Source: an uncultured Clostridia bacterium (GTDB taxonomy: Bacteria; Bacillota; Clostridia; Oscillospirales; Feifaniaceae). Taken from it: DNA of 64,000 nt. Below, piece after piece: positions 35,236 to 63,659 of this stretch (position 1 is the stretch's first letter; every line of letters begins with the position of its first letter). A model generated the notes under the pieces. That model searched no databases. It was not told the origin of the DNA and saw only the letters and a program-made list of their open reading frames with translations. Position numbers and translations under genes: made by a program. The DNA lies in the NCBI GenBank assembly GCA_944376235.1, contig CALWCA010000011.1:1-64000 (forward strand), in the 5' to 3' direction.

Positions 35236-35301
35236 GTCGCTTTTCTGCCCAAAAGCAGGCGACGCTGTCTGAAAACGGTTGACCTGTCCGGTAAGGGACA
35301 G

Positions 35302-35413: not shown

Positions 35414-35599
35414 TTCCCGCAGGGAGAACTTTGTCAGACGCTCGGAAAAGGTCTGCCGGCTCCCCTGCTTGCCGGTCAGAAAAACGAAGGGCACATCTGG
35501 ACGGTGCCGGCCCCGCGCCTGCGCAAGGCGGGGCAGCCGCTTGCGGTGCCCCGGGGCCCGTGCGGGGCCCTGCAATCCTTTAAGAAAGGACGGATTATT

Positions 35600-36484: not shown

Positions 36485-36489
36485 CGAAA

Positions 36490-37452: not shown

Positions 37453-37456
37453 GGGC

Positions 37457-40170: not shown

Positions 40171-40260
40171 AAAAAGAAGGAGGCCGTGGGGGCAGGTTTT
40201 CAGCCTGCCCCCACGGCCTCCTCCTTTTGCTGCGCTGCCCGCAGGCAGCGCAGCTTTTTT
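40171..40260. terminator. Double hairpin terminator after glyA
   Basis: Hairpin A (40179-40196 with 40204-40221, 18 bp) runs on the minus strand into TTCTTTTT and would end the purine operon mRNA. Hairpin B (40229-40239 with 40244-40254, 11 bp) is followed on the plus strand by T6 and would block transcription from the other side. Confidence 0.85.
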
Positions 40261-45300: not shown

Positions 45301-46073
45301 ACAGGCTTTGTCACGCCGAGGGCCGCTCTGGTCTGCAGATAGTCCTCATAGGTTCTCTGCAGCAGGGGGTCTTCAAAGGAGACCTCGTCGATCACGGTGC
45401 CGAAGGTGGTGTGCCGGCAGTGGTCGGACCAATAGGTGTCGATCATGCGCAGCTCGGTCAGCGTGGGGTCGCGGCCCTCTTTGGAGAAGTAGTCAAGGCA
45501 GACGTCGAGGTCGGCCTCGTCCATGGCAAGGCCGTAGTCGGCCAGAAAGGCGGCCTTGTCCTTCATGGTGCGAAAGCCCTCGAGCACCGGCACGCGGGAG
45601 GGGACGTCAAAGCTCTGGGCCAGCGTGTCGTAGGGGGCAAGCTGGGCCTCGCGCGCCTCCACGGGGTTGATGAGGTGGGCCTTGATGCGCGAGACGTCCT
45701 GCTCGCTCAGCTTTCCCGTGAGCAGGTAGACGCGGGCGGTGCGCACGGCGGGCCGCTCGCACTGGGCGAGAATCTGGATGCACTGCGCGGCCGAGTCGGC
45801 GCGCTGGTCGAACTGGCCGGGCAGGTATTCAACGGCAAAGGCCGCATCGGCCTTCGGCAGATCGTCGTAGGTGAGGTCGAGCTGCGGCTCCGAGAAGATG
45901 GTGGTGCGGCAGGCTTCAAAGAGCGTCTCGTCAAGCCCTTCCACATCATAGCGGTTGAGCAGGCGCAGCCCCTCGAGAGACTCAATGCCGAGCAGGGTGC
46001 GAAGGTCGGAGAGAAGGGCTCTGGCCTCCCCAGCCAGGGGCGCTTTCTTTTCCACATAAAGACGTGTCACCAT
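42384..46073 (-). CDS. purL: Phosphoribosylformylglycinamidine synthase, single-chain
   Basis: FGAM synthase converts FGAR, glutamine and ATP to FGAM. The 1229 residues are the long form: an N-terminal PurS-like part, a linker with DTYWSDHCRHTTF, two AIR-synthetase-like halves (KNETHNHPTEIEPFGGAAT, GGRTGRDGCGGATGSSKSH, GGKDSMSGSFED) and a C-terminal glutaminase (from about 960) with FPGTNCEYDTAKA, nucleophile region MCGICNGFQALIKLG and the His-Glu pair in PIAHGEGRF. It overlaps purD by 7 bp and folD by 1 bp. Confidence 0.97.
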   Translation of the reverse strand: MVTRLYVEKKAPLAGEARALLSDLRTLLGIESLEGLRLLNRYDVEGLDETLFEACRTTIFSEPQLDLTYDDLPKADAAFAVEYLPGQFDQRADSAAQCIQILAQCERPAVRTARVYLLTGKLSEQDVSRIKAHLINPVEAREAQLAPYDTLAQSFDVPSRVPVLEGFRTMKDKAAFLADYGLAMDEADLDVCLDYFSKEGRDPTLTELRMIDTYWSDHCRHTTFGTVIDEVSFEDPLLQRTYEDYLQTRAALGVTKPVCLMDLATIAARSLKKEGALPGLDESEEVNACTVKITVQTEQGDEPWLLLFKNETHNHPTEIEPFGGAATCVGGAIRDPLSGRAYVYAAMRLTGAADPLKPLSETLPGKLPQRKIVMDAAAGYSSYGNQIGLTTGLVDEVYHPGYEAKRMEVGAVIAAAPAGNVRREKPAPGDAVILLGGRTGRDGCGGATGSSKSHTVSSLETCGAEVQKGNAPEERKIQRLFRNPEASRLIKRCNDFGAGGVSVAIGELADGLRIDLSAVPKKYEGLDGTELAISESQERMAVVVAAGDVDKFLALAHAENLEATVVAHVKADPRVTMTWNGDVIVDLSREFLSCNGASKHTTASPAAPKPFAREIPGDFAGGMRRLADDLNVCSKQGMAERFDCNIGAGTVLMPYGGIYQRTPIQAMAHKISREKGDALTCSLMSWGFNPHVSEKSPFHGAYLAVVESVSKLVASGAGLADTYLSFQEYFEKLGHEPSRWGKPLAALLGAYKAQKELRLASIGGKDSMSGSFEDIHVPPTLISFAVTVEPVAHVVSPEFKQAGHRVVLLRPETDADGLPTANSLLKNFETVAKLLHSGCACAAYTPGFGGVAEAVMKMGFGNNLGLAFDKGVSLHDLFSYAYGAFVLELADETVQAGLPLGVVTQQPVLTFGGETVELSELLRISEAKLAPLFPRSVDMEQQTVPAFSFEGTAKRAPAVLTQKPRFLIPVFPGTNCEYDTAKAVELAGGEADIFVIRNLTSADISESIDAFAAALRQSHAVVIPGGFSGGDEPDGSAKFITAFFRNARVKEETTALLEQRDGLMCGICNGFQALIKLGLVPFGKIVDTDESCPTLTFNTIGRLQSRMVRTRVASTLSPWMSQTRVGEVYTTPIAHGEGRFWADEATVERLAKNGQIALQYVDLDGNPTMDIAHNPNGSAAAVECITSPDGRVLGKMAHVERIGPGLYKNVPGRYDMGLFRSAVAYLGGR

Positions 46074-47353
46074 GGCGTTGCTCCTCCTTTTGTGGCCGCA
46101 AGGGCGCGTGCGCCGATGTCCTTGCGGCAGTACTTGTTGTCAAAGGCGACGTCCTGCGCCGCCTGATAGGCAAGGTCGACGGCCTCCCCGAGCGTATCTG
46201 CCAGGGCGCTCACGCCAACGACGCGGCCGCCCGAGGTCATAAGGCGCCCCCCTTCCAGCTTTGCGCCGGCCACAAAGACCGACACATCCTTGCGCGGGGC
46301 GGGAAGGAGGAGGGGGAAGCCGGTCTGGTATTTCCCCGGGTAGCCCTGGGAGGCCAGCACCACGCAGCAGCAGGCCCTGTCGGAAAAGCGCACCGGCACA
46401 TCGGCCAGGCGGCCCTCGGCGGTGGCCTCCATGATGTCGAGCAGGTCGCCCTCCAGCAGGGGCAGCACGGCCTGGGTTTCGGGGTCGCCGAAGCGGCAGT
46501 TGTATTCGATCACGCGCGGCCCCTGCCGGGTCAGCATGAGGCCGAAATAGAGGCAGCCTCGGAAGGGACGGCCCTCGGCGGCCATGGCCTCGATGGTGGG
46601 CCGGAAGATGGTGTCCATGCACTGGCCGGCGACTTCCGGCGTGTAAAAGGGATTGGGAGCGACAACGCCCATGCCGCCCGTGTTGGGGCCAAGGTCGCCG
46701 TCCAGCGCTCTCTTGTGGTCCATGGCGCTGACCATGGGCACCACGGTCTTGCCGTCGGCAAAGGCCAGCACCGACACCTCGGGGCCCTCGAGCATCTCCT
46801 CGATGAGGATGCGCGCGCCGCTCTCGCCGAACACCCGCTCCCCCATCATGGCGTGCACGGCGGCCTTGGCCTCCTCCCTCGTGTAGGCCAGCGTCACCCC
46901 CTTGCCCAGCGCCAGGCCGTCGGCCTTGATGACGGTGGGGATGGGGGCGGTGTCCAGATAGGCAAGCGCCTGCGCCTCGTCGTCAAAGACCTCGAAGGCG
47001 GCGGTGGGAATGCCGTATTTCTTCATGAGCCGCTTGGCAAACACCTTGCTGCTCTCGATTTCGGCAGCCTTTTTGTCGGGGCCAAAGCAGGCGATGCCGG
47101 CCTGCCTGAGCGCGTCGACGGCGCCCAGCGCCAGAGGGTCGTCGGGCGCAACCACCACGAAGTCGATGCCCTTTTCTTTGGCAAAGGCCACCATGGCGTC
47201 GATGTCCTTTGCCCCGATGGGCACAAGGGTGGCGTCGGATGCCATGCCGCCGTTGCCGGGCAGCGCATAGAGCTGCGACACGCGGGGGCTTTGCCGCAGC
47301 TTCTGGACGATGGCGTGCTCGCGCCCGCCGCCGCCCACTACCAGAACTTTCAT
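46067..47353 (-). CDS. purD: Phosphoribosylamine--glycine ligase
   Basis: 428 residues, ATP-grasp enzyme joining glycine to phosphoribosylamine. VLVVGGGGREHAI at the start, VIKADGLALGKGV, GDLGPNTGGMGVVAP and EYNCRFGDPETQAVLP are signatures. This product step depends on PurF's unstable product, so the two being in one operon is expected. Confidence 0.97.
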   Translation of the reverse strand: MKVLVVGGGGREHAIVQKLRQSPRVSQLYALPGNGGMASDATLVPIGAKDIDAMVAFAKEKGIDFVVVAPDDPLALGAVDALRQAGIACFGPDKKAAEIESSKVFAKRLMKKYGIPTAAFEVFDDEAQALAYLDTAPIPTVIKADGLALGKGVTLAYTREEAKAAVHAMMGERVFGESGARILIEEMLEGPEVSVLAFADGKTVVPMVSAMDHKRALDGDLGPNTGGMGVVAPNPFYTPEVAGQCMDTIFRPTIEAMAAEGRPFRGCLYFGLMLTRQGPRVIEYNCRFGDPETQAVLPLLEGDLLDIMEATAEGRLADVPVRFSDRACCCVVLASQGYPGKYQTGFPLLLPAPRKDVSVFVAGAKLEGGRLMTSGGRVVGVSALADTLGEAVDLAYQAAQDVAFDNKYCRKDIGARALAATKGGATPW

Positions 47354-47554
47354 GAAAACCGCACCTCGCTTTTGCTGTCAAAGGGGGGTGGATGCCTCAG
47401 GCAGGCGGCCCGGCCGTGCGGCCGGACGGCCTGCCCAAGGCCGAAAATCAGGCCCGGAAGTCCCCCTTACACCCTTGCGGGGAAAAAGGGCGCGTCTCCC
47501 CTGCCCTCTTTTTGGAGGCGGGGCGGCGGGGAAAGAGCTGCCGGGACGGGGTCA

Positions 47555-48739
47555 TCAATGGTGGAACAGGCGCGCGCCCGTGAAGGCCATGGCAATGCCG
47601 TATTTGTCGCAGCATTCGATCACGGCGTCGTCGCGCACCGAGCCGCCGGGCTGGGCGATGTAGGACACGCCCGACAGGTGGGCGCGCTCGATGTTGTCCG
47701 AGAAGGGGAAGAAGGCGTCGCTGCCCAGCGACACGCCGGTGACGGCGTCAAGGCAGTCCCTGATCTGCGCCTCGCTCAGGGGTTCGGGACGGGACTTGAA
47801 GTATTTTTGCCATACGCCGGGCGCGCAGACATCCTCCTCGGTCTTGTTGATGTAGCGGTCGATGGCGTTGTCGCGTTCGGCGCGGGGCAGGTCGTCCAAA
47901 AAGGGCAGCGAGAGCACCGCGTCGCTCTGGCGCAGGTGCCAGGTGTCGGCCTTGCCGCCGGCAAGGCGGGTGCAGTGGATGCGCGACTGCTGCCCGGCGC
48001 CCACGCCGATGGCCTGTCCGTCCACGGCGTAGCACACCGAGTTGGACTGGGTGTATTTGAGCGTGATGAGCGCCACGATGAGGTCGCGCTTTGCGCTCTC
48101 GGGCAGCTCCTTGCATTTGGTGGGCATGTTTTCAAACAGCGCCGGCGTGATTTCAAAGTTGTTGCGCCCCTGCTCAAAGGTGATGCCGAAAACCTGCTTG
48201 CGCTCGATGGGCGCCGGCACGTAGGAGGGGTCGATCTGAACCACGTTGTAGGCGCCGCCGCGCTTGCTGCGCAGCAGCTCAAGCGCCTCGGGCGTGTAGC
48301 CGGGGGCAATCACGCCGTCCGACACCTCGCGCTTGATGAGTTTTGCCGTGGTCAGGTCGCACACGTCGGACAGCGCCACCCAGTCTCCAAAGGAGCTCAT
48401 GCGGTCGGTGCCGCGTGCACGGGCGTAGGCACAGGCGAGGGGCGAGAGGTCGAGGCCCTTGACGGTGTCGACAAAAAAGGCCTTTTTCTGGCGCTCGGAG
48501 AGCGGCAGGCCCACGGCGCCCGACGTGGGGCTGACATGCTTGAAGGAGGCCGCTGCCGGCAGGCCGATGGCCGCCTTGAGCTCGGAAACCATCTGCCAGC
48601 TGTTGAAGGCGTCGAGGAAATTGATGAAGCCGGGGCGGCCCGACAGCACCTCAATGGGCAGCTCGCCGCCGTCCTCCATGAAGATGCGGGCCGGCTTCTG
48701 GTAGGGGTTGCAGCCGTATTTGAGCAAAAATTCTTTCAT
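47555..48739 (-). CDS. purH: AICAR transformylase (stand-alone PurH C-terminal domain)
   Basis: 394 residues, the formyltransferase half of PurH only. LKYGCNPYQKPA, FINFLDAFNSWQMV, AAASFKHVSPTSGAVG (Lys-His of the active site) and SLGSDAFFPFSDNIERA identify it. The IMP cyclohydrolase domain (MGS-like N-terminal part) of bifunctional PurH is missing; that activity is supplied by the PurO-type gene just upstream (3 bp gap). Confidence 0.93.
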   Translation of the reverse strand: MKEFLLKYGCNPYQKPARIFMEDGGELPIEVLSGRPGFINFLDAFNSWQMVSELKAAIGLPAAASFKHVSPTSGAVGLPLSERQKKAFFVDTVKGLDLSPLACAYARARGTDRMSSFGDWVALSDVCDLTTAKLIKREVSDGVIAPGYTPEALELLRSKRGGAYNVVQIDPSYVPAPIERKQVFGITFEQGRNNFEITPALFENMPTKCKELPESAKRDLIVALITLKYTQSNSVCYAVDGQAIGVGAGQQSRIHCTRLAGGKADTWHLRQSDAVLSLPFLDDLPRAERDNAIDRYINKTEEDVCAPGVWQKYFKSRPEPLSEAQIRDCLDAVTGVSLGSDAFFPFSDNIERAHLSGVSYIAQPGGSVRDDAVIECCDKYGIAMAFTGARLFHH

Positions 48740-48742: not shown

Positions 48743-49471
48743 TTAAAGCACAGCTCCTTTTTCCAGGTTTTTGTTGCGCAGACGCTGCTCGAAGCGTCGG
48801 GTCTCAAGATTGGTGAAGCGCACAAACAGCGAGACCTTGTTGTCGGGGTTTAGGCTGCTCCACACCGTGTCGGTGAGGGTGTCGATGTCGCCGGGGAGGG
48901 CGACGCGCTTCGGCTCGCCTGCAAAACTTGGGATGGGCGTCCCGTCGCACACATAGGTGTGCAGCAGGTGGCCTGTGCCGGGGTGGCCGGGGTATTCAAA
49001 AAACTGACGCGCGCAGTTTGAGCCCTCGGGGTCGTTTGCCTTGAGAATCGAGAGCTTGTAGCTGCCGTCGGGAGAGAGCAGCCCCGAGATGCGGGGGGTG
49101 AAGTTGGGGGCGTCGGGCTCAAACTCCCGCGTGCGAAGCGCGGCGGCAAAGCTCTGCCCGCGCAGAAGAAACTCGCAGATGGTGTCGGTCTGGTCCCCGT
49201 TTGTCACCACCAGCCCCCTGCCCGCCTCGCGGACGGGGTGATAGATGATAAGGCTGGGGTCGGAGAGCTTTGCGGGGTCGAAGGCCTCGGTGCGGATGCC
49301 GTCGGGCTCCTCGACAAAAATGCGGTTGCGGCTGTTGACGCTGCGGCCCATGATAAAGTACACGGCCACCGAGCACACGCCGTCGGGCGTCATGCCCAGC
49401 ACGATGCCGCGCCCCGGATAGGAATTTTCCTCCAGCAGCCCGGCCAAAGACAAAGTTTCATAGCCCTTCAT
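48743..49471 (-). CDS. purO: IMP cyclohydrolase, PurO type
   Basis: 242 residues. ATG 49471 (KGYETLSLAGLLEENSYPGR) is preferred, with GGGAG upstream; a second ATG lies 6 codons earlier. NSYPGRGIVLGMTPDG, YFIMGRSVNSRNRIF, ITNGDQTD-like VVTNGDQTD and SNCARQFFEYPGHPGTGHLLHTY resemble the archaeal PurO family, an alternative enzyme for the last step to IMP. Several Clostridia pair such a gene with a lone AICAR transformylase, as here. Confidence 0.85.
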   Translation of the reverse strand: MKGYETLSLAGLLEENSYPGRGIVLGMTPDGVCSVAVYFIMGRSVNSRNRIFVEEPDGIRTEAFDPAKLSDPSLIIYHPVREAGRGLVVTNGDQTDTICEFLLRGQSFAAALRTREFEPDAPNFTPRISGLLSPDGSYKLSILKANDPEGSNCARQFFEYPGHPGTGHLLHTYVCDGTPIPSFAGEPKRVALPGDIDTLTDTVWSSLNPDNKVSLFVRFTNLETRRFEQRLRNKNLEKGAVL

Positions 49472-49618
49472 GGCAGCACCATCTCCCATCGTCCAAGTGT
49501 TGTATTTGCCGCTGGGGCTCCCTTGCGGCATTTTTTAAGAAAAGGCGGTCACAAGCAGCGCCGCATGCGGCAGGTGCCCTGCCCGGCGCAAAGGCGCGGC
49601 GGCCTTTTGCAGGCGGCT

Positions 49619-50239
49619 TTAGGGGCGGCCGCCGTCCGCCCTGCCGGCCAGCTCCTCACACAGGGCCTGCACGGCCTGGGGCAGCAAGATCCACTCCGCC
49701 TGCTCCATCACGCGGCGCTGAAGGGTCTCGGGCGTGTCGTCCTCGCGCACCTCCACGGCGCGCTGCAGCAGGATCTTCCCGCCGTCGGGGATTTCGTTGA
49801 CCAGGTGTACGGTGGCGCCCGTCACTTTCACGCCTCTGGCAAGGGCGGCCTCGTGCACGGCAAGGCCGTAGAACCCGCGCCCGCCGAAGGCGGGCAGCAG
49901 CGAGGGGTGGACGTTGACGATGCGCCCCTCATAGCGCGCGATAAAGTCGGGGCTCAGGATGCACAAAAAGCCGGCCAGCACCACGAGGTCGATGCCGTGG
50001 GCGGCAAGGGTGTCCAGCAGCTCGCGCTCAAAGTCGCCGGCGCTGCGGCCCTTGCGCGGCACCACCACGGCCGGCACGCCGGCAGCCCTCGCCCGCTCCA
50101 GGGCGTAGACCCCGGGCCTGCTCGAGACCACCAGCGCAATGTCGCCGCTGCTGAGGGCGCCGGCGCGCGCCGCGTCGAGCAGGGCCTGCAAATTGGTGCC
50201 CCCGCCCGACACCAGCACGGCAATCTTGGGTCTTAACAC
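49619..50239 (-). CDS. purN: Phosphoribosylglycinamide formyltransferase
   Basis: 206 residues from a GTG start overlapping the end of pur[38 protein letters not shown], the catalytic Asn-His-Asp set in [12 protein letters not shown] and [17 protein letters not shown] is PurN-like, using 10-formyl-THF. In the second motif the usual VDEGxDxGPI reads [10 protein letters not shown], so the conserved Asp (VD to VN) is replaced and the last Asp (of PDGG) is kept. Confidence 0.92.
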
Positions 50240-51273
50240 AAAATCACGCCCCCGTCTCCCTTCACAAGCTCTCCTGCGACATAGGCTGCAACGCCCTGCG
50301 CGCGCAGAATCTCAAGGGCGCGGTCGGCCTGCTGCCTGGCGACCACAACCGTCATGCCCACGCCCATGTTGAAGGTGTTGAACATGTCGCGCTCGGGGAT
50401 GTTTCCCTCTTTTTGCAGCAGGGGGAAGATGGGCGGTGTGACAAGGCCGGCCTTGTCGATTTTTGCGGCAAGGGTGGAGGGCAGGCCGCGCGGGATGTTT
50501 TCGAAAAAGCCTCCGCCCGTGATGTGGCAGACGCTCTTGACCTCCACGGCCTCAAAGAGGGCCAGCACGGGCTTGACATAGATGGCGGTGGGGGTGAGCA
50601 GCGTCTCCCCCAGCGAGCGGCCCTCCAGCTCGTCGAGCGGCTTTGTCAGGTCGCGGTGCTCCACGTCGAACACGCGGCGCACCAGCGAAAAGCCGTTGGA
50701 GTGCAGGCCGCTCGAGGGCAGCGCAATCAGCACGTCCCCCTCGCAGGCGCGCTGCTTGTCGGGCAGGCGCTCCCTGTCTGCAAGGCCGACGGCAAAGCCG
50801 GCCAGGTCGTATTCGTCTTCGGGATAAAAGCCGGGCATTTCGGCCGTCTCACCGCCGATTAAGGCGGCGCCGGCCTGCACGCAGCCCTCGGCCACGCCGG
50901 CCACGATGCGCTCGATGCGCTCGGGCAGGTTTTTGCCGCAGGCGATATAGTCGAGGAAAAAGAGCGGCCGCGCCCCGCAGCACACGATGTCGTTGACGCA
51001 CATGGCCACGCAGTCGATGCCCACGGTGTCGTGGCGGTCGAGCAAAAAGGCCAGCTTGAGCTTGGTGCCCACGCCGTCGGTGCCGCTCACCAGGACGGGG
51101 GACTTGATGCCCGTCAAATCGGGGCAAAAGAGGCCGCCGAACCCGCCGACATCGCCCACGACGCCGGGGGTGACGGTGCGCCCGATGTGGCGCTTCATGA
51201 GCTCCACCGCGCGATAGCCCGCCGTAATGTCCACACCGGCGGCGGCATAGCTGTCGGATTTCGATTGGTTCAT
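50233..51273 (-). CDS. purM: Phosphoribosylformylglycinamidine cyclo-ligase
   Basis: AIR synthetase, 346 residues from ATG 51273 (AAAGGAG at 11 bp). [56 protein letters not shown] and [13 protein letters not shown] are canonical. It overlaps purN by 7 bp. Confidence 0.97.
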
Positions 51274-51281: not shown

Positions 51282-52700
51282 TTACTCCTTTCCGCTCCAG
51301 CAATAGGTGCAAAGGCAGTGCTCGGGCAGGCCGATGGCCTTGATGAGGTTGGGCAGGGTCTGAAATTCCAGGGTGGCAAAGCGCAGCTTGGCACAGATGG
51401 CCTTGCGCATGGCCCTGCCGCGCTCGCTCTCGCCGTCGCCGTACTCCTCGGCGTGGCGGTGGCCCTCCTTGCCCTCAAACTCCTCCATGGTGCGCCGGGT
51501 GATGAGGTCCATGTCGGAGGTGCTGCGTGAGAAGTTGAGGAACTTGCAGCCGTACATCACGGGCGGGCAGGCCGAGCGCATGTGCAGCTCCTTTGCCCCG
51601 TTTTCATAGAGGAAGTTGACCGTTTCACGCAGCTGGGTGCCGCGCACGATGCTGTCGTCGACAAAGAGCAGCCGCTTGTCCTCAATGAGCTGGTGCACGG
51701 GGATGAGCTTCATCTTGGCCACCTGGTTGCGCACGATCTGGGAGGCCGACATGAAGCTGCGCGGCCAGGTGGGCGTGTATTTGACAAAGGGGCGCGCATA
51801 GGGCACGCCGCTCTCGTTGGCAAAGCCGATGGCGTGGGGCACGCCCGAGTCGGGCACGCCGCACACATAGTCGATGGGGGGCAGGCCGCGGCCGGCAATT
51901 TCCGCCGCCGCCAGCAGCTTGCCGTTTTGGTTGCGCATGACCTCCACGTTGACGCCCTCGTAGCAGGAGTTGGGATAGCCATAGTAATTCCACAGGAAAG
52001 AGCACACCCGCAGCGTGTCTCCCGGCGGGCTGAGCTGCTCCACTCCCTCGGCCGTCACGCGCACGATTTCGCCGGGGCCCAGCTCGCGCAGGTCCCGGTA
52101 GCCGAGCTTCTGGTAGGCAAAGGATTCAAAGGAGACGCAGTGGCCGTCCTCGTTTTGTCCCAGCAGAACCGGCAGGCGGCCCACGCGGTCGCGCGCCGCA
52201 ATGATGCCGCTTTCAGTGAGAATGAGGATGGAGGCCGTTCCCTCAATCACGCTCTGGGCATAGCGGATGCCGTCTTCAAAGGTGTCCTCGCAGTCGATGA
52301 GAGCGGCGACCAGCTCGGTGGAGTTGATGCGCCCGCCGGTCATGGCGTCAAAATGGGCGCCGCGCTGCAGCAGCGTTTTTGCAAGCTGCTCGAGGTTGTT
52401 GATGATGCCGATGGTGCTGATGGCGTAAACGCCCAGGTGCGAGTGGATGAGCATGGGCTGCGGGTCGGTGTCGCTGATGCAGCCGATGCAGGCATTGCCC
52501 TTCATCTCGGCAATGTCGCTCTCGAATTTTGTCCGAAAGGGGCTGTTTTCAATGTTGTGAATATACCTCTGAAAGCCAAGGTCGGGCGAAATACAGGCCA
52601 TGCCGCCCCGGCGGATGCCCAGGTGCGAATGGTAGTCGGTCCCGAAAAAGACGTCTAAAATACAGTCGCGCTTTGAAATCGCTCCAAAAAATCCACCCAA
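51282..52700 (-). CDS. purF: PurF-family amidophosphoribosyltransferase lacking the N-terminal cysteine
   Basis: 472 residues from TTG 52700, exactly 7 bp after GGAGG. The protein begins Met-Gly-Gly-Phe-Phe-Gly, whereas active glutamine-dependent PurF begins Cys-Gly-(V/I)-Phe-Gly after processing. A GTG further upstream would add a Thr-Cys, but it has no ribosome site and places Cys off register. The rest looks functional: [12 protein letters not shown], the PRPP loop [14 protein letters not shown] (about 345) and C-terminal cysteines CLCTYC that may bind an Fe-S cluster. It is the only purF in the operon, so either it uses free ammonia or a partner, or another purF exists elsewhere. Confidence 0.88.
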
Positions 52701-52783: not shown

Positions 52784-53461
52784 TTATGCAAAGAAGAGCC
52801 GGGAAAGCTCCATGGGCTCGATATACTGCCCATCCTTGTAGACGCGCATGTTGCCGGAGGCAATCTCGTCAATCAGGATGACCTCGTCGCCGCTATAGCC
52901 GAACTCAAACTTGATGTCGTAAAGGGTGAGGCCCTTTTGCGCCAAATCGTCGGCCACGACGCCGGTGATTTTCTGGGTCATGTCCTTGATGGCGTCATAC
53001 TGCGCCGGCGTCATAACGCCCAGCACCTCAAGCCCGTCCCGGGTCACGAGCGGATCGCCCTTGGCGTCGTCCTTGAAGGTCATCTCCACATAGGCGGGCA
53101 GGGGCGCGCCCTCCTCGATATAGTCCCCGTAACGGCGGAAGAAGCTGCCCACGGCGCGGTGGCGGCAGATGACCTCAAGCCCCTTGCCAAACACCTTGGC
53201 CGGCAGCACCTCCATGGTGGTGTCGGCGAGATTTGCCTTGACATAGTGGGTCTTGATTCCGGCTGCCTTGAGCTTTTCGAAGAAGCACACCGACATGCGC
53301 AAGTTGACGTCTCCAACCCCCGCGATGCTCAGCCCGACGGTGTTTGCCCCGGGGTCGAACACGCCGTTTTCTCCCGTCACGTCGTCTTTGAACTTGAGCA
53401 GGTAGTTGCCGTTGTCCAGCGCGAAAACATCTTTGGTTTTTCCGGTGTAAATGAGCTTCAT
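52784..53461 (-). CDS. purC: SAICAR synthase
   Basis: 225 residues. [14 protein letters not shown] (ATP site), [30 protein letters not shown]-like region and [20 protein letters not shown] are PurC features (ATP-dependent joining of aspartate to CAIR). Start ATG after AGGAGG. It lies between purE and purF. Confidence 0.95.
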
Positions 53462-53565: not shown

Positions 53566-54063
53566 TTACCGGCCCGAAAGGCGCTGCGACAGCGCCGCGT
53601 CCTTTTCGAGCACCGTTTGGCTTTCGGCCTTCCTGCGGGCCTCGAGACGCTGCGCCAGCGCCTCGTCCTCGAGCGCCAAAATCTGCGCAGACAACAAAGC
53701 GGCATTGACTGCCCCGTCGATGGCCACCGTTGCCACGGGGATTCCCGCAGGCATCTGCACGGTGGAAAGGAGGGCGTCCATGCCGTCTAGCGTTGAAGAT
53801 TTGATTGGAATGCCGACAACCGGCAGCGTGGTACAGGCGGCCAGTGATCCGGCCAGATGAGCCGCCTTGCCGGCGGCCGCAATCAAAACGCCAAAGCCGT
53901 TTTCTTTGGCTGAAAGAGCAAAGCTTCTCGCCTGCTCGGGGGTGCGGTGGGCTGAATAGACATGGGCCTCAAAGGGCACCTCGAGCTCCGAAAGCGTGTC
54001 GAGGGCCTTCTGCACCACCGGCAGATCGCTGTCGCTTCCCATGATGACTCCGACTTTCTTCAT
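53566..54063 (-). CDS. purE: N5-CAIR mutase, class I PurE
   Basis: 165 residues. [17 protein letters not shown], the active-site [15 protein letters not shown] and [20 protein letters not shown] fit class I PurE, except that the usual AGxAAHLPGxxA has Ala for Pro. No purK is present in the window, so CAIR would form from N5-CAIR made elsewhere or directly from CO2. First gene of the operon under the ZTP riboswitch. Confidence 0.95.
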
Positions 54064-54113: not shown

Positions 54114-54165
54114 AAAGGAAAAAGAAAAAGGCAGTCCTGCCTTGTATCATCACAACAGAACTGCC
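54114..54165 (-). terminator. Riboswitch-controlled terminator of the purine operon
   Basis: Minus strand: GGCAGTTCTG... (54165-54156) pairs with ...CAGGACTGCC (54139-54130), followed by TTTTTCTTTTTCC. The 5' arm takes up the last bases of the ZTP aptamer (54162-54165), so folding of one excludes the other. Confidence 0.88.
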
Positions 54166-54238
54166 CAGACGGTCGGCCTACAATAGTTTCTTGCTCCCAT
54201 GTGGTTCAAGCCCACTTCCATCCGTCAGTCACAAAAAA
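54162..54238 (-). ncRNA. ZTP (pfl) riboswitch upstream of purE
   Basis: Read on the minus strand, 54238-54162 has the two conserved blocks of the pfl/ZTP motif: TGTGACTGACGGATGG ... GTGGGCTTGAACCACATG GGAGC, and after a variable loop GCCGACCGTCTGGGCA. ZTP riboswitches sense ZTP/ZMP, which build up when 10-formyl-THF is short, and turn on purine and one-carbon genes. The overlap with the following terminator indicates an ON switch by antitermination. Genes downstream (purH, folD, glyA) are exactly those expected. Confidence 0.92.
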
Positions 54239-54261
54239 CCGTTATTTGTCACATCGCTTTC

Positions 54262-54290
54262 AGTATATCTGTTTAAAAGCCGCCCGTCAA
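54262..54290 (-). promoter_or_regulatory. Promoter of the purine operon
   Basis: Minus strand TTGACG (54290-54285), 17 bp, TATACT (54267-54262), some 20 bp before the riboswitch. Confidence 0.88.
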
Positions 54291-54536: not shown

Positions 54537-57500
54537 TCAGCCCTGCTCCACGCTGCAAAAGCGCATGAGCATGGCGGCAAATTCGCTGCGCAGCGCGCCG
54601 TCCTGCGGGGCAAGAAGGCCGTTGTCCCGGCCGGTGACAATGCCCTCTCCACAGGCCCACTGAAGGGCGGAGACGGCATACTCCGAAACCGAGAAGGCGT
54701 CTGCATAGGAGAGGATATTGGTGTCCTCGCCCACCGACACGTCATAGCCCTGGCTGACGGCGTAGCGGTAGAGCATGGCGGCAAGCTGCTCGCGCGTGAC
54801 AAGGTCGTTGGGGCCGAAGCTGCTGTCGTCATAGCCCGTGACAACGCCCTCGCTGGCGGCCCAGCGCACGGCCTCGGAATACCACAGCCCCTCGTCCACG
54901 TCGTCAAAGGTCATGGCGTAGTTGACAACGGGCTCTTCGGCCATGCGCCACAGCACGGTCACGATCATGGCGCGGGTGGTGGTGAGATCGGGCGAGAAGA
55001 GGGTGTCGGAGGTGCCCTGCAGCAGGCCGTTTTCAAAGACGTAGCGCACGGCGTCAAAATACCAGGCGGCCTCGTCCACATCGTCAAAGGGGTTGTCCCA
55101 GGCGCTTGCGCCGCCGTCGTCCGGGACGAAGCTGACCGAAATGGTGTGGGCCTTCGAGACGTCGCGCAGGGTGTAGGAGGTCACGCTGCCCACAGACACG
55201 CCGTCCACCAGCACGTCGTCCACCACATAGCCCTCGTCGGGCGTGATGGCAAAGGTCAGGTCGTCGCCCTTGTCGACCGAGGTCTTGCCGGAGGGCGAGA
55301 CGCTGCCGCCCTCTCCGGCCGAGGCCGAAACGGTATACGAGGGGGTGACCGTGCCGGAGGGAGCGCCGCCGCTCGAACGGCGGGTGAGGGAGGCTGTGGC
55401 CTCAACGGTGAGGTCTCCCGCTTCGCCGGCAAACAGCGCGGACCACAGCGCCTCGCTCAGCGTCTCAAAGCACTCGTCGCCGGTCTTGTCAAAGAGCCAG
55501 CCCCGGAAGAGATAGCCGGTTTTGGAGGCCTCGGGCAGTGCGCTGCCGATGTCGGCGACGCCGTAGGTCTGCTGGGGCACGTCGTTGTCAAAGGTCACGG
55601 TCAGGCTGCGCGTGTCTGCGGGGGTCAGCGTCAGGGTGCCGGCGCCCTTGGCCACGACGACCGAGGCGACGTCCACGCCCTGCTGCTGCTGCACCAGGGC
55701 GTCGTAGCAGGCCTCGCTGCCGTCGGCGCTGCGCAGATGGAAGACCGAAAGGCCTTCTTGCGCAAGGGCATCCGGCAGGGGCAGCGACAGGGTGAGCGAG
55801 GCCGACACCGCCAGGGGCTCGTCCCCGAGCGGCACGGCGTTGAGGCCGCTCTCGGGGTCGCCTTCGGTGCGGATGCCGTCCGCCGTCTGCGCGGTGGAGA
55901 CAACGGTTTTGACCTTGAAGTCAAGCGCAAGGGTGAGCGACGACAGCGCCCCTTCCGACAGCTCCAGGTCGGTGAGCTTCACGTTGAGATAGGGCAGCAC
56001 GAAGAGCGTGGCGGGGGTTTGCTCCGAAACCTCCACGCCGGCCGCCTCCAGCTTGCCCAGGGCTTCCTGCAGATCGACGGTATCGGCCACGCTGCCGGCC
56101 GCGCCGACCAGGCCGCTTGCGGAGAGTGCCGGAGCGGTGCCGCCGTCAGGCAGCAGCAGGGCGGCGGCTTCGTCAAGGGCATCGCTTTCCTGCTGGGTCA
56201 GCTCGCGTGCGGGCTCAACCGCCACAACCGGCGCACCGTCGCTCACGACGACGTTTTCAACGCTCTGCCGAACCCCGAAGAAGCCCTCCTGCTCGGCAGG
56301 CACAGCCATGAGCGACTCGTCGAGATAGGCGGTGGGGTCGGAGGAGAATTCGCCGCCCGTCACAAACTGCTTGTTCTCGATATCCGGTGCCTGCTCCTTG
56401 AGGTAGCAGACCACGGCCTGCGCCTTCTGGCTGGACAGGAGGCCTCCCGAAATTTCGGCGGACGGCGCCCCGCCGGGGTAGTCGCAGGCTTCGAGGACAA
56501 CGGCGTCGCCGGTGCTAACGTAGCCGCTTGACTCATGAGTGTAGGGCGTCCTGGCGCCGGTGGCGGAAATCTCGCCGCCTTTCACCACCAGATGGCCCGA
56601 CTTCATGACAATGCCGGTCGAGCCCGTGATGAGCCCGCCTTCCACCGTCAGCGTGCCGGACTGGGGGTGGTAGATGCCGGCCTTGTCGGAGAGGACCCTG
56701 GCGCCCTCCTTGATGACGATGATGCTGTTTTGGGTGGTGGAGCCGTTGCCCTGAATGGAGGTGTTGGAGGTGCCGGTGGTGTCGATGGTGCCAAAGAGCT
56801 CAAGGCTGGGAAAGGTGCCGACCAGGAGCACGGAATTTCCCGCAACCGTGAAATCGCTTTCAATGACAATGCGGGAGCCGGTGCTGGAAGCATCCGTCGC
56901 AATGGCGGCAAGGGATCTGGAGTCGGCCTCCAGCCTGCCGTTGCGCAGGGTCAGGGTTTTGTTTGACAGGAGCAGGAAGGCCGGGCTGGTGGTCAGGGCG
57001 TCATAGCGATAGGTGTGGCCGTTCAGATCCAGCGTCAGGGTGTCGGCGTCGCCGGTGTGCAGGCCGTAGCTGATGGATTTTTGGGTCTCATAGTCGTCAT
57101 AGAAGGTGACGGTGCTGCCCTCTTGGGTCCGGGCGTCGGAAATGGCCGTGGCGATGCTCGAGTACTCCAGAACCTCGCCGGTTGACAGCGTGACGGTTGC
57201 CTTGACGCCCGACTGGTCCAGACGGCACTGATAGAGGCCGTTTTCCTCAGACAGGCGGAAGGTGCTGTCAAAGGGCGCAACCGAAAAGCCCGAGACGTCG
57301 CCCTCGCCCGTCACCGTGACGTCAGCCAGCTTGAGCGGCAGGGTTCCCGACAGCGACGCGCCCTGCGCCACTGTGATGCCCAGCGAAGCGGCGGGGTGGT
57401 TGCTGCTGCCGAAGGAGGCCCCTTCCGGGAAGGTGCAGGCGACGTCCTTGAGAACGGTCAGCTGCGCGCCATCCGGCATGAGGCCGGCCTGCTGGAGAGT

Positions 57501-58412
57501 ATACAGGTCGGCAGCGACAGCCTGCCCGTCAGGGTCGGTTCCCTCCAGCAGGTAGAAGGTCTGGCCGTCGAAGTCCGACTGGATGGCGGCGTCGGGAGTG
57601 CCGCTCACCACCTGCATGACAAGCGCGCCCTCACGCAGCGTGTGGCACAGCAGGGCGTCATCGTCCAGCAGGGCGGTGTCGGCCTGCGGGTCCCAGTTGT
57701 GGAAGACGCCGCCCGAAATGACAAGGGTGCCGCTATCGACGTCGTCGAGGATGGACTTGGAGGCCGCCTTTTCCACGACCAAAAATTCCCCGCCTGAAAT
57801 TACGGCCTCCACAGGCCGGCTAGAGGAGGACTTGTAGCGAATGACGTCGCCGTCCTGGGAAATCAGGCGGGCGTCCTGCACCTCCAGCTTGGCAGGGTAG
57901 GTATCGCTTACGGCGTTGTGCAGATAGGCAACGACCGAGGTGGAATAGGTGGATAGGTTCTCGAGCGTCACGCCGTTTTTGAGGGTGACGGAGCCGGCAG
58001 CGACGGCAGAGGGCTTGATGTAGAGCACGCTGCAGGCCTTGTCCTCCAGCGTGTTGACCATGCTGCCGCCGCCCACGCTGTCGACAATGTCCACATGGCA
58101 GCCCACCGCCTGGAACACGCCTGTTTGGGTGCCCTGGAAGGCGCCCGAGAGCGTGCAGCCGCCAAGGTCAAAGGTGAGGTCGCGGGTTATCGAGACCGAT
58201 TTTTCAACCGTCACGTTGGACAGCAGCTTGATGGTGACCGGCCCGTCGGGCAGGGCCTCCACGGCCGCAACTGCCTCTTCCAGCGTCTCATACTGGCTGT
58301 CGCCCACAATTTCGGCTTCGTAGACGGGTTCGGCCAGCGTGCCGAGCGAGAGGGGCCCTGCGGCCAGGCACAGGCACAGGAGCATGGCAAGAAGTCGCTT
58401 TGCCGATGTCAT
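54537..58412 (-). CDS. Secreted SLH-domain protein with beta-helix region
   Basis: 1291 residues from ATG 58412 (AAAGG at 9 bp; the ATG at 58421 is too close). A signal peptide (AKRLLAMLLCLCLAAGPLSL) precedes a long region (about 35-640) of short beta-strand repeats (VTIKLLSNVTVEKSVSIT, DLTFDLGGCTLSG, LTLRNGRLEADS) like a right-handed beta-helix. A mixed linker follows, then an InlB-type repeat (VTFDNDVPQQTYG, about 938), a bacterial Ig-like/BR repeat (YTVSASAGEGGSVSPSG, about 1027) and three SLH domains (about 1105-1291; AAWYFDAVRYVFENGLLQG is the first). SLH domains bind pyruvylated wall polymer, so it is a surface adhesin or glycan-binding protein (inference). It shares its layout with the next SLH gene. 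Confidence 0.9.
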   Translation of the reverse strand: MTSAKRLLAMLLCLCLAAGPLSLGTLAEPVYEAEIVGDSQYETLEEAVAAVEALPDGPVTIKLLSNVTVEKSVSITRDLTFDLGGCTLSGAFQGTQTGVFQAVGCHVDIVDSVGGGSMVNTLEDKACSVLYIKPSAVAAGSVTLKNGVTLENLSTYSTSVVAYLHNAVSDTYPAKLEVQDARLISQDGDVIRYKSSSSRPVEAVISGGEFLVVEKAASKSILDDVDSGTLVISGGVFHNWDPQADTALLDDDALLCHTLREGALVMQVVSGTPDAAIQSDFDGQTFYLLEGTDPDGQAVAADLYTLQQAGLMPDGAQLTVLKDVACTFPEGASFGSSNHPAASLGITVAQGASLSGTLPLKLADVTVTGEGDVSGFSVAPFDSTFRLSEENGLYQCRLDQSGVKATVTLSTGEVLEYSSIATAISDARTQEGSTVTFYDDYETQKSISYGLHTGDADTLTLDLNGHTYRYDALTTSPAFLLLSNKTLTLRNGRLEADSRSLAAIATDASSTGSRIVIESDFTVAGNSVLLVGTFPSLELFGTIDTTGTSNTSIQGNGSTTQNSIIVIKEGARVLSDKAGIYHPQSGTLTVEGGLITGSTGIVMKSGHLVVKGGEISATGARTPYTHESSGYVSTGDAVVLEACDYPGGAPSAEISGGLLSSQKAQAVVCYLKEQAPDIENKQFVTGGEFSSDPTAYLDESLMAVPAEQEGFFGVRQSVENVVVSDGAPVVAVEPARELTQQESDALDEAAALLLPDGGTAPALSASGLVGAAGSVADTVDLQEALGKLEAAGVEVSEQTPATLFVLPYLNVKLTDLELSEGALSSLTLALDFKVKTVVSTAQTADGIRTEGDPESGLNAVPLGDEPLAVSASLTLSLPLPDALAQEGLSVFHLRSADGSEACYDALVQQQQGVDVASVVVAKGAGTLTLTPADTRSLTVTFDNDVPQQTYGVADIGSALPEASKTGYLFRGWLFDKTGDECFETLSEALWSALFAGEAGDLTVEATASLTRRSSGGAPSGTVTPSYTVSASAGEGGSVSPSGKTSVDKGDDLTFAITPDEGYVVDDVLVDGVSVGSVTSYTLRDVSKAHTISVSFVPDDGGASAWDNPFDDVDEAAWYFDAVRYVFENGLLQGTSDTLFSPDLTTTRAMIVTVLWRMAEEPVVNYAMTFDDVDEGLWYSEAVRWAASEGVVTGYDDSSFGPNDLVTREQLAAMLYRYAVSQGYDVSVGEDTNILSYADAFSVSEYAVSALQWACGEGIVTGRDNGLLAPQDGALRSEFAAMLMRFCSVEQG

Positions 58413-58551
58413 GAGGGTCATCCTTTCTTTGTAAAGTCCCGCCCTTCGGGGCAGGCGCTCCGATATTTTATGTAAGCCGAGAGGCGGTCTGCCTCTCAGG
58501 GGAAAACGCGCCAAAGCCGCCTCAGGCGGCCGCTTTTTGCCAAAGAGTTAT

Positions 58552-59215: not shown

Positions 59216-62200
59216 CTATTTGACAAAGCCCTGGCAGAAGTTCATAAACATCTGCGCCGACTCGGCACGGGTTGCCAGAGCGTCGGGGCTGAGCAGGGCA
59301 TGGGTTCTGCCGGTGATGACCCCGGCGTCGCAGGCCCACTCCATCGCCTTGAGAGCATAGTCGCTGACCTCGGAGGCGTCGTCATACTGCGAGATGCCGG
59401 CGTCGTCGCTCACCGAGACGTCGTAACCCTTGTAGGCGGCGTAGCGGTAGAGGATGGCGGCAAACTGCTCGCGCGTGATGGGGTCTTCGGGGCCGAAGGT
59501 GCCGTCGCCGTAGCCCTCGACGATGCCGTGCTGGGCGGCCCAGGCAACGGCGTTGGCGTAGTAGGCGCCGGAAGAGACGTCGTCAAAGGGGGTGCCGGAC
59601 GCGGCAGGCTCGCCCGCCAGACGGTGCAGCATGGTGACGATCATGCCGCGCGTGGTGGTGAGGTCGGGGCTGAAGGTGTCGGACGAGGTGCCGTTCATGA
59701 GCCCCTCGGTCACGGCAAAGACCACGGCGTCATAGTACCAGGCGCCCTCGTCCACATCGGTGAAGGGCAGCTCCACGCCCTCGGCAAAGGAGGCCTCCAC
59801 CGTCACGGACGAAGCGGGCATTTTGAAGGTATATTTTCCGCCGCCCTGGGCACCCAGGCTGAGCTGCTTGCCGGTGGAGTTGTTGGTGACGGTCAGCTCG
59901 TCGAGGCGGTAGCCCTGCGCGGCGCTCACCGTGAGCGTCACGGTGTCGTCTTCGGAGGCGCGCTCGCGGCTGGAAGAGACGCTGCCGTTTTCAGCCTGCT
60001 TCACCGTGATGGCATAGGTGGTGTCGGAGGGCGAGGAGGGGGCGGGGCCGCCGCCGGAGGACGCATTCCTCCACCGGGCGGTCAGGGCCAGCTCGAGGGG
60101 CGCCCCGTTGGCGATGTCGATGGTCTTGGAGAAGAGCTCCCCTTCGGCGGTCTCCCATCCGCTCAGGCGCTTCCCGGTCAGGGTGACCGAAGGCAGCTCG
60201 GCCGTATCGCCCTGTGCCGCAAAGATATCCTCGGGGTCAGGCGTTCCGCCGTTTGCGTCAAAGGTCAGGTGCGTCACGGTGAGAGAAAGGGAATTGACGG
60301 GGGTCTCCGAGAGAACCTCGCCCACCACGGGGTACAGGGAGAACGTATAGGTCCCGGGAGCAAGCTCCTCAGTGGCGTTCGAGGCTCCGGCGCCGGGGTC
60401 AAAGTCAAAATAGATAACGCCGGAATTGTCGCCGGCTGCGATGTCTTCCTGATAGACCACAGTGCCCCCTGCATCCGTGACGCGCAGCTTGAAGGCGTTG
60501 TCGCCCGTGCGCTTGGTCAGAGCGGCATACATGGTCATGTCGGAGCAGTCGCCCTCGAAGGCGACGCCCTCGGGCAGGGCCAGCCCGCCCGTCAGCAGCG
60601 CCTCGATGGCGGCGTTTGCATCGTCGGCATTCATCTTGAAGCCGACGGTCGACAGCGCGACGGCGTCGGCCTCATACATGGCGTTTAAGGCCTCCGTCAG
60701 GATGGCTGCAACGGCTTCGGGGGTCTGCGCCGCCTCAAGGGCGCTCACAGCCTTCTCATAGGCCGACTGGGGCAGCACTTTGCCCTCGTCCGGCTGGTCG
60801 AGCATGGCCTTGACGTCCTCTTTCAGCGAGCGCAGGAGAGCCTCTTTCTGAGCGGCCAGCGTCTCGCTCCACAGATCGTCGGTCGACCAGTCGAGCCCCT
60901 CCCCGGCGGCTTCGATGGCAGCCCTTGCCTCGGCCACTTTTTCGCCATAGTTCAGCTGGTCAAGGGGGTCTTGTGCAAAGGGTGCCGCAAAGGCATCGAA
61001 ATCGTCCAGGGCCTCCTGCTTGGAGAAGAGGGTCAGCGTGCGCAAATCGTTGGAGTCCCCGGAGCTGTCGCAAAGGGCGATCACATAGTCGCCTGCGGCG
61101 AGGGGCAGGTAACCGTCCGGGCTGCCGGGGGTTCCGACGTGGTCTTCCCGGTTAAAGGTGAAGTAGACCAGCGAGGCGTTGGTGACGGTATTTTCCGGAG
61201 GCTCAACTTCAAACCAGTTAAGGGAGGCGTCCTCCGGGGGAAGGATCCACAGGGTGTAGGCAAAGGGAGCGCCGGTTCCCCGGATCCCGACATACATGGT
61301 CTGGTTGTCGCAGTCGGTAATGGAGAGGCTGGCGTCGCCGGCAAAGGGACGGGCCAGCTCCTCCCAGAGCTCGGAAATCACTTGGTTGGCGGTCTCCCCT
61401 TTGTCCTCAAAGCCCGCGAAGGCGAGAGTGGGCAGTCCGCCGTTGAGAATGCGATAGGTGGAAAAGTGGCCCACGTCAAAGGAGAGCGTCCCATCGGCCC
61501 AGGACGAGTCCAGCTTATCGTAACCGTAAAAACTACTCTCATCCAGACGTTTTTCAGGGTTGAGGTAGTAGACGACAGGGGTCAGCCTGCCCTCCGGCTC
61601 AGGCCACGGAAGCGTCACGGTGACAACCCCCTGCGGCTGCTGCTCGGCGGTGAAAACAGCCTCGTCCGAGGCCACTGCCAACAGCTCCAGGGTGTCGCCG
61701 TCCAGGCTCCAAATCAGCAGCAGCTCAGAGAACTCGGGATCTTGCGCCAGCGCGCATTCCTGCAGGGAGGCGACGGCCTGCGCGTCAAAGCCAAGAGAGC
61801 CCAGGGAGTCAGGGTTGCTCTGGAAAACGATGCGCTTTCCACTGTCTTCCAGGCTGGCCAGGGCCTCGGCCGAAAGGACAATTTCGGCCGTGGACACATC
61901 GCCAGCCACCGACAGGTCAAACGTGATGCCGTCCTGCTCCACCGTGACGCCCTCGCCGGGCTGGCTCAGGTCGCTGCCCTCAATGGCGGCGGTCACGGTG
62001 CCATCCTCCAGAGAGGGGGTGACGGTCACGGGGCTTTGCGGCAGCGCTACGTCGGGCAAAATGGCCTCGTAGACCACATCGTCCATGACAAGGCCTTCCT
62101 CATCCATCCACTGGACGCGCACCCAGGTATTGGGCTGCTGCGCGGAGGCGTCAAAGTAGAAGGCGATGCCGCTGCCCCCCTCTTCCGTGACGTTGCTCTC

Positions 62201-63040
62201 CAGGGGAGTACTCGACAGGTTGGCGTCGTCATAGGCAGTCTGCTTGTCGGGGCCGACCGCCACCTTGGGGCCGCCCACAGACCCCTCCGGGGCCACGATG
62301 GCAAAGCCGACCCAGCAGCCCTCTTGGCCATTGGCGTTGGTGTGGCTGACAAGGCCCTCGGCCGAAATGGTCACGGGCACACGGCCCTTTGTAAAGCCGG
62401 CTGGCGAAACCGAATAGCTTTCATACAATTCATCGTCGGGAATGGGGTCTTGCTGGGCGGCGTCGTGCAGAATGGCGGGCTCAACCGGCCAGATGCTGCG
62501 GGGCTCGACAGCCGACATATCCATGTAGTAGACGGTGTCCTCCCCGATCGCGGCCCCTTCCCCGTCGAGCCAGCGCACACGCGCCCAGGTCTTGGGGTCG
62601 GAATCGCCGGGGTCGGAATAAAAGGCGATGCCGTCGTCCCCGTCGGAGGTGACGGCCGGCTCCAGCGCCGAGGGAGAGCTCAGATTGTCTTCCCCGACCT
62701 TGCTCTGCTCGGCCGAGAAGGCATACTGAACCTGCTGTGCGCCTTCGGGAGCCGCCAGCGCAAAGCCGACCCAGTAGCCCAGCCCCTCGGAGGGAGATGC
62801 GCCGTAATGGGGCTTGAGCCCCGTCGCCTTAATGGTGACGGTCACAACGTCGTCTTCCCCGGTTTGGGTCGTGACCAAATAAGAGCCCTCGTCATAGAGG
62901 TACTTTGCCGCCATGCCGGCTCTCGCGTCATTCAGAGGGGCGGGCAGCGGCGTATTCGGCTTTGCGGCCAGGGCCCAGGTGGGAAGAAGGGTCAGCACCA
63001 TGCCCAGGACGAGCAGGGCTGACAAAAGACGTTTCTTCAT
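59216..63040 (-). CDS. Secreted SLH-domain protein with tandem beta-sandwich repeats
   Basis: 1274 residues from ATG 63040 (GGAGG at 10 bp). Signal peptide (MKKRLLSALLVLGMVLTLLP, ending near TWALA). Two homologous repeats of about 115 residues (about 63-175 and 222-335) share YWVGFALAAPEG / CWVGFAIVAPEG and WARVRWLDGEG / WVRVQWMDEEG. A long middle part with further beta domains and helical segments follows. Near the end are an InlB-type repeat (LTFDANGGTPDPED, about 925), a BR repeat (YAITVKQAENGSVSSS, about 1007) and three SLH domains (about 1090-1274). Function unknown; probably wall-bound and exposed. Confidence 0.9.
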   Translation of the reverse strand: MKKRLLSALLVLGMVLTLLPTWALAAKPNTPLPAPLNDARAGMAAKYLYDEGSYLVTTQTGEDDVVTVTIKATGLKPHYGASPSEGLGYWVGFALAAPEGAQQVQYAFSAEQSKVGEDNLSSPSALEPAVTSDGDDGIAFYSDPGDSDPKTWARVRWLDGEGAAIGEDTVYYMDMSAVEPRSIWPVEPAILHDAAQQDPIPDDELYESYSVSPAGFTKGRVPVTISAEGLVSHTNANGQEGCWVGFAIVAPEGSVGGPKVAVGPDKQTAYDDANLSSTPLESNVTEEGGSGIAFYFDASAQQPNTWVRVQWMDEEGLVMDDVVYEAILPDVALPQSPVTVTPSLEDGTVTAAIEGSDLSQPGEGVTVEQDGITFDLSVAGDVSTAEIVLSAEALASLEDSGKRIVFQSNPDSLGSLGFDAQAVASLQECALAQDPEFSELLLIWSLDGDTLELLAVASDEAVFTAEQQPQGVVTVTLPWPEPEGRLTPVVYYLNPEKRLDESSFYGYDKLDSSWADGTLSFDVGHFSTYRILNGGLPTLAFAGFEDKGETANQVISELWEELARPFAGDASLSITDCDNQTMYVGIRGTGAPFAYTLWILPPEDASLNWFEVEPPENTVTNASLVYFTFNREDHVGTPGSPDGYLPLAAGDYVIALCDSSGDSNDLRTLTLFSKQEALDDFDAFAAPFAQDPLDQLNYGEKVAEARAAIEAAGEGLDWSTDDLWSETLAAQKEALLRSLKEDVKAMLDQPDEGKVLPQSAYEKAVSALEAAQTPEAVAAILTEALNAMYEADAVALSTVGFKMNADDANAAIEALLTGGLALPEGVAFEGDCSDMTMYAALTKRTGDNAFKLRVTDAGGTVVYQEDIAAGDNSGVIYFDFDPGAGASNATEELAPGTYTFSLYPVVGEVLSETPVNSLSLTVTHLTFDANGGTPDPEDIFAAQGDTAELPSVTLTGKRLSGWETAEGELFSKTIDIANGAPLELALTARWRNASSGGGPAPSSPSDTTYAITVKQAENGSVSSSRERASEDDTVTLTVSAAQGYRLDELTVTNNSTGKQLSLGAQGGGKYTFKMPASSVTVEASFAEGVELPFTDVDEGAWYYDAVVFAVTEGLMNGTSSDTFSPDLTTTRGMIVTMLHRLAGEPAASGTPFDDVSSGAYYANAVAWAAQHGIVEGYGDGTFGPEDPITREQFAAILYRYAAYKGYDVSVSDDAGISQYDDASEVSDYALKAMEWACDAGVITGRTHALLSPDALATRAESAQMFMNFCQGFVK

Positions 63041-63209
63041 GGCAGGAATCCTCCTTAATGAAATAATAGTGTCTGCAAGGTGAGAGGACAGACGGTGCAG
63101 CTTCCATCCCTCCTTTCGCTGCGGCAAGGGGCTGCTGCCGGACAGAGCCCCGTGCGGAGAAGATGCGCCACGGAAAAGAGAGCATCTTCCATTCGTGCAA
63201 TGTACTTAC

Positions 63210-63524: not shown

Positions 63525-63553
63525 TTGACAGAAGGCAAGAGCTATGGTATAGT
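63525..63553 (+). promoter_or_regulatory. Promoter of tRNA-fMet
   Basis: TTGACA (63525-63530), 17 bp, TATAGT (63548-63553) with TGG just before. About 28 bp before the tRNA. Confidence 0.88.

Positions 63554-63581: not shown

Positions 63582-63659
<78 letters not shown>

Follow-up and report, generated by a model that had tools for sequence, protein, structure and literature searches.

A ZTP riboswitch ahead of a purine operon in a Clostridia genome without detectable PurA, PurB, or HisF, and a variant PurC as a candidate direct source of ZMP

The window analyzed here is a 64,000-nucleotide stretch of contig CALWCA010000011.1 (assembly GCA_944376235.1) from an uncultured Clostridia bacterium of the family Feifaniaceae. 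Its minus strand carries an element that is almost certainly a ZMP/ZTP riboswitch, judging from its sequence, followed by an operon in the order purE, purC, purF, purM, purN, PF07826 IMP cyclohydrolase, AICAR transformylase, purD, purL, folD, and glyA. The features, all on the minus strand, are listed in the direction of transcription.

54262 to 54290, minus strand: sigma-70-like promoter site just upstream of the aptamer, TTGACG-17-TATACT (10/12 consensus matches, weak evidence alone)
54156 to 54242, minus strand: predicted ZMP/ZTP riboswitch aptamer, RF01750 (55.5 bits), with pseudoknot GACGG/CCGUC (found in 35/35 sites)
54118 to 54166, minus strand: predicted intrinsic terminator with T tract; the 3' strand of aptamer P3 serves as its 5' arm (folding and 35-site comparison)
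53566 to 54063, minus strand: purE (TIGR01162, 198 bits, above cut-off)
52784 to 53461, minus strand: purC variant, here called PurC2, 225 amino acids (TIGR00081, 108 bits, cut-off 189.9; PF01259, 134.5 bits)
51282 to 52700, minus strand: purF variant, here called PurF2, with a probable TTG start (TIGR01134, 168 bits, below the cut-off of 350)
50233 to 51273, minus strand: purM (profile match)
49619 to 50239, minus strand: purN (profile match)
48743 to 49531, minus strand: stand-alone IMP cyclohydrolase, "PurO" (PF07826, 198.6 bits)
47555 to 48739, minus strand: stand-alone AICAR formyltransferase, the ZMP consumer (NF005492, 652.7 bits)
46067 to 47353, minus strand: purD (profile match)
42384 to 46073, minus strand: purL, single-chain FGAM synthase (TIGR01857, 1734.9 bits)
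41536 to 42384, minus strand: folD (profile match)
40271 to 41515, minus strand: glyA, serine hydroxymethyltransferase (profile match)
40177 to 40223, minus strand: operon-end T-tailed terminator with a 20-bp stem (hairpin 3' of glyA)

A covariance search, which the sequence-only reading had proposed as a check on its assignment to the ZTP class, matched RF01750 at 54242-54156 on the minus strand with 55.5 bits against a gathering score of 39 (E = 2.6e-6), covering all 86 model positions and thus upholding that assignment. The span reported earlier, 54114-54238, comprises nearly the whole match plus the terminator; it is the only RF01750 match found in the source genome, and transcription probably starts near 54255. 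The 3' strand of P3 (GGGC) opens a 13-bp terminator stem (approximately 54166-54129) that has two extra pairs above an interior break and is followed by a T-rich tract, as expected from the earlier claim that the last bases of the aptamer form the 5' arm of a T-tailed terminator. The terminator fold has a free energy of −21.1 kcal/mol (z = −4.4), and none of 200 shuffled sequences was equally stable. We compared 35 aptamers with their flanks (L001 to L035), including that of the window. All five pairs of the pseudoknot, formed by J1/2 and L3, are intact in 35/35 sites, and in all 35 the P3 3' strand also begins a T-tailed hairpin 3' of the aptamer. Pseudoknot pair 18-95 covaries (A-U in 29 sites, G-C in 6), a change to which the Rfam model assigns no score; the window has the A-U pair, in contrast to the G-C of the Rfam consensus letters. 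RF01750 is present in 5/8 genomes of the family and 170/295 genomes of the order. Taken alone, the window riboswitch adds one more ordinary example to a known class.

A shortage of 10-formyl-tetrahydrofolate (THF) causes ZMP to pile up, so that a switch turned on by ZMP would raise expression of AICAR transformylase and of the one-carbon suppliers FolD and GlyA. Binding of ZMP or ZTP would hold P3 and the pseudoknot together and keep the terminator from invading P3, allowing RNA polymerase to read through into the eleven purine and one-carbon genes. We take the window element to be such an ON switch, acting by terminator prevention, because its layout is shared with the pfl riboswitch of Clostridium beijerinckii, for which PMC10085676 shows ligand-gated strand displacement as an ON switch, with the same overlap of aptamer and terminator; the two have in common the aptamer, the H-type pseudoknot, the P3 strand that also belongs to the T-tailed terminator, and downstream purine and folate genes.

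Profile matches confirmed all eleven genes, from purE to glyA, downstream of the riboswitch. The earlier description of the set as covering purine synthesis and formyl-THF supply stands in part: folD and glyA lie in the operon, but fhs is on another contig. Unlike bifunctional PurH, which combines both activities in one chain, AICAR transformylase and IMP cyclohydrolase are encoded here by two genes. Intergenic gaps range from −7 to 201 bases; the widest (47354-47554, minus strand, 201 bases), between the AICAR transformylase gene and purD, contains a long GC-rich hairpin and a GGGC...GCCCTTTTT stretch, possibly an internal attenuator.

PurB usually catalyzes the ZMP-forming step, and HisF is the other known source of ZMP. 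We found no match to the PurB profile TIGR00928 in the source genome, a draft estimated to be 92.7% complete; PF00206, which covers the whole lyase superfamily, returned nothing at E values up to 10, and PurA was likewise absent by profile search, although each of these profiles was positive in 14/14 control genomes. A divergent PurB was therefore rejected on the strength of both empty searches. HisF was not found in the source genome either: the sole weak match, at 24 bits, lies in a PyrD-like protein, recognized by eye and discarded as a ZMP source. Thus, the sequence-only reading's statement that the riboswitch monitors a ZMP pool produced by its own operon is unsupported as worded, since purB is not in the operon and neither PurB, its lyase superfamily, nor HisF was found in the genome. 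The operon does encode the ZMP consumer, AICAR transformylase; in contrast to known pfl systems, this genome keeps a ZMP consumer and a ZMP switch without any detected known ZMP-forming enzyme.

Related genomes show the same pattern. PurB was absent from 4/4 genomes of the genus and from G005, and present in G001 and G006; PurA was absent from the same 4/4 genomes, and G001 and G006 were the only positive ones in the family. The only, low TIGR00928 match in G007 (75% complete) is ArgH, at 655 bits. Among the low, lyase-level matches, the two ORFs checked as possible PurBs (L040 and L042) both proved to be ArgH (655 and 657 bits). Another member of the genus, G003 (98% complete), has no match for PurC, PurA, PurB, or the ZTP riboswitch, and is possibly a purine auxotroph.

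We searched 295 genomes of the order for purB, purA, and the window PurC, counting purB as present if the best match had E < 1e-50. By PurC class, 84 genomes carry type A (approximately 55 to 100% identity to the window PurC), 16 carry type B (40 to 44%), 164 carry a canonical PurC, and 31 have none. PurA and PurB are both missing from 61/84 type-A and 10/16 type-B genomes, versus 1/164 canonical genomes, and from 9/31 genomes without PurC. This anti-correlation persists in the 226 better genomes (≥90% complete and ≤5% contaminated), for which the corresponding numbers are 41/60, 5/10, 0/136, and 5/20. For loss of PurB, type A versus canonical, the odds ratio is 63 (p = 2e-31) across all genomes and 71 (p = 6e-23) in the better set (41/60 versus 4/136), with genomes treated as independent, which they are not: the counts are of genomes rather than independent events, and many are draft metagenome-assembled genomes. 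PurA is retained in the four near-complete canonical genomes that seem to have lost PurB. One genome, G283 (best purB E = 2e-46), was counted as lacking purB and may carry a broken copy. The 61 type-A genomes without either gene span 17 families and 36 genera, and single genera hold both states, as in g22: G024 has a canonical PurC and both genes, whereas G063, G141, G153, and G164 have type A and neither gene.

PurB occurs alongside type A in 22/84 genomes, 12 of which have a second PurC match; the other 10 show PurC2 only, so PurC2 may make SAICAR in some genomes. In three type-A genomes with purB (G091, G112, and G265), a second, canonical purC lies ≤5 kb from purA and purB, and canonical purC adjoins purA and purB in 11 measured genomes, chosen as examples, three of which also carry PurC2. 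The riboswitch is commoner with type A (66/84) than with canonical PurC (81/164; p = 1e-5). At the level of individual loci, 52 had purE and room upstream, 28 of them uninformative as to PurC type because purC was not on the fetched contig; the ZTP motif was present in 9/17 type-A loci, using one exact motif that misses variants.

PurC2 misses the curated purC cut-off (TIGR00081) and still falls within the SAICAR synthetase Pfam family (PF01259). Its AlphaFold model (pLDDT, 90.2) has the SAICAR synthetase fold (EC 6.3.2.6): it superposes on Escherichia coli PurC (2gqr) with Z = 26.6 and 1.7 Å over 212 residues, and its best Foldseek match is 4fe2. The least certain part of the model is the inserted loop described below. 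We aligned distinct PurC sequences of type A (n = 55), type B (n = 10, from the 10/16 type-B ORFs read), and the canonical class (n = 14, from loci recruited by AICARFT or ZTP searches, hence not a balanced sample). Residues for ATP, Mg, and CAIR are retained in PurC2. In human PAICS, the aspartate carboxylates are contacted by Lys228, Arg232, Thr40, and Lys191, as described in PMC9376930; we mapped these onto the bacterial proteins ourselves, by residue identity or motif and by spacing. The equivalents of Lys228 and Arg232 are the Lys and Arg of the C-terminal DKDRFR motif of canonical PurC. The former is Lys in all canonical sequences but Leu in all of type A and Cys in all of type B; the latter is Arg in all canonical sequences and deleted in all of types A and B. 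Two of the four aspartate contacts are thus gone in 65/65 PurC2 sequences, while the Thr40 and Lys191 equivalents are retained. PurC2 further differs from SAICAR synthetase in a change of SPD to ASG (type A), in an insert, FDPGxNxVG, beside the Thr40 loop (types A and B), and in its distribution, most of the genomes that carry it having neither PurA nor PurB. A quick tree of 65 sequences placed types A and B together on one side of a supported long branch from the canonical class, with a program warning about long branches. Across the loci compared, in-operon purC2 is 75 to 86% identical, and purE and purN there are mostly 50 to 75% identical; purE, purC, and purF are intact and conserved in both the window operon and that of L044.

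Truncated PurCs have been described in archaea. The coding sequences of TK0432, TGAM_1268, and Mlab_0676, like that of PurC2, stop before the equivalent of E. coli Arg215, which the authors of PMC3261824 count as a CAIR contact. These archaeal proteins occur where purB is present: according to that account, each purine-making archaeon surveyed has one purB, and the Thermococci carry another purC besides. Mlab_0676 has no other PurC beside it in its organism, and the authors saw in this a hint that a truncated protein may still make SAICAR; where they discuss these proteins, direct AICAR synthesis is not claimed. In contrast, no PurB partner for PurC2 was found in the source genome or in 4/4 genomes of its genus.

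The third gene of the operon is also unusual. PurF2 resembles amidophosphoribosyltransferase PurF in domain order and place in the pathway, but it lacks the Cys1 nucleophile of the canonical ECGVFG start: in the window, the probable TTG start lies seven bases after GGAGG and yields the N terminus GGFFG. The cysteine is missing in 15/15 PurF2-type loci with PurC2 and kept in 6/6 loci with canonical PurC and canonical-class PurF. Two other PurC2 loci (L064 and L098) have a canonical-class PurF with its own loss of the cysteine (MAVFG). The link is not strict: G007 has PurC2, no PurB, and a PurF with Cys (L004); at L115, PurF2 accompanies a canonical PurC; and for 20 PurF2 loci the contig carries no purC. 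At L092, where purC is not on the locus, a canonical-class PurF starting MGVFGIIG appears to be a further case of cysteine loss. Since E. coli PurF without its Cys loses glutamine use and keeps ammonia use (reported in PMC3261824), PurF2 is probably ammonia dependent.

Our preferred explanation, which we favor by a little, combines the ON switch with ZMP supplied by PurC2 instead of PurB. Like a SAICAR synthetase, PurC2 would use ATP to activate CAIR, but the attacking group would be ammonia (or some other small nitrogen donor) rather than aspartate, so that AICAR (ZMP) forms in a single step. PurF2, which lacks the cysteine needed for glutamine use, would also draw on ammonia. In the mechanism calculated for human PAICS in PMC9376930, phosphorylation of CAIR precedes attack by the amine and no protein residue acts as a catalyst, so replacing aspartate with ammonia would need no new chemistry. 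If PurC2 makes AICAR from CAIR, PurB is unnecessary for IMP; with adenine nucleotides from salvage, PurA and PurB would both be dispensable and could be lost together. Direct synthesis would account for the loss of both genes together, for the absent aspartate contacts, for purC-purA-purB behaving as a block, and for the persistence of an intact operon under ZTP control. It would also mean that the riboswitch senses the product of its own operon, in which case the earlier statement about the ZMP pool may be true after all. PurB-independent ZMP synthesis by PurC2, argued from sequence comparisons, has about an even chance of being correct, perhaps marginally better; for the specific activity of a CAIR:ammonia ligase, we regard the balance as even.

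The main competing explanation is that PurC2 is still a SAICAR synthetase, binding aspartate in some other way, and that an unrecognized lyase outside the PurB/fumarase superfamily frees AICAR. The conserved fold and catalytic residues speak for it, as does the archaeon with purB whose only PurC is truncated (PMC3261824), but it leaves two of four aspartate contacts missing in every PurC2 sequence of both types, and a replacement lyase would not call for the loss of PurA. Nor does the window operon offer a lyase candidate, because every gene is assigned and no gap exceeds 201 bases. On balance we consider this unlikely, though a serious contender. A variant of direct synthesis, in which glutamine, by way of a partner glutaminase, would supply the nitrogen instead of free ammonia, rests on the same data as our preferred explanation; the operon, however, holds no unassigned glutaminase gene and PurF2 lacks its own Cys, making this version quite improbable.

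We likewise give little credence to the idea that PurB and PurA are present and were missed through assembly gaps or strong divergence. The genomes are drafts, including the window's own, and the 4/136 near-complete canonical genomes that lack PurB and keep PurA provide a rough rate of chance loss; yet PurB loss tracks PurC type in near-complete genomes, both profiles detected their targets in every control, and TIGR00928 is sensitive enough to pick up ArgH in relatives, as in G007. It is similarly improbable that the de novo route is broken at SAICAR, with ZMP or AICA riboside imported or salvaged and the operon serving post-ZMP steps or decaying. That no known ZMP source was found in the source genome fits such a break, but the window and L044 operons both retain purE, purC, and purF in intact, conserved form, PurC2 is among the best-conserved proteins of the operon, and G003, which lacks a PurC match, also lacks a match to the riboswitch, as if the set were dropped when unused.

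If direct synthesis by PurC2 is correct, this protein would mark out a branch of de novo purine synthesis in Clostridia of gut and rumen that does without PurB, purC-purA-purB would be an aspartate-dependent module gained or lost as a block, and the ZTP riboswitch, by responding to what an enzyme of its own operon makes, would gain a directly testable role in a pathway without its textbook ligand source. We found no description of a PurB-free or ammonia-dependent step from CAIR to AICAR in open-license PMC papers. In a 2024 review, PurB counts among the steps of the pathway and is its one enzyme that E. coli cannot do without even on rich medium. If widespread, a bypass would alter how the pathway is modeled for gut and rumen bacteria, in which gap filling would wrongly add PurB or call the organisms purine auxotrophs.

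The flanks of the operon hold several other features. Directly upstream of the riboswitch lie the genes for two proteins of approximately 1,300 amino acids (54537-58514 and 59216-63127, both minus strand). Both proteins carry three SLH domains at the C terminus, and a strong terminator at 54465-54424 lies between these genes and the riboswitch. Convergent with the purine operon, livHMGF branched-chain amino acid transporter genes followed by a gene for a CBS-ACT domain protein occupy 35279-39586 on the plus strand. There are tRNA genes at 16014-16087 (minus strand) and 63582-63655 (plus strand), the latter preceded by an 11/12 promoter match at 63525-63553.
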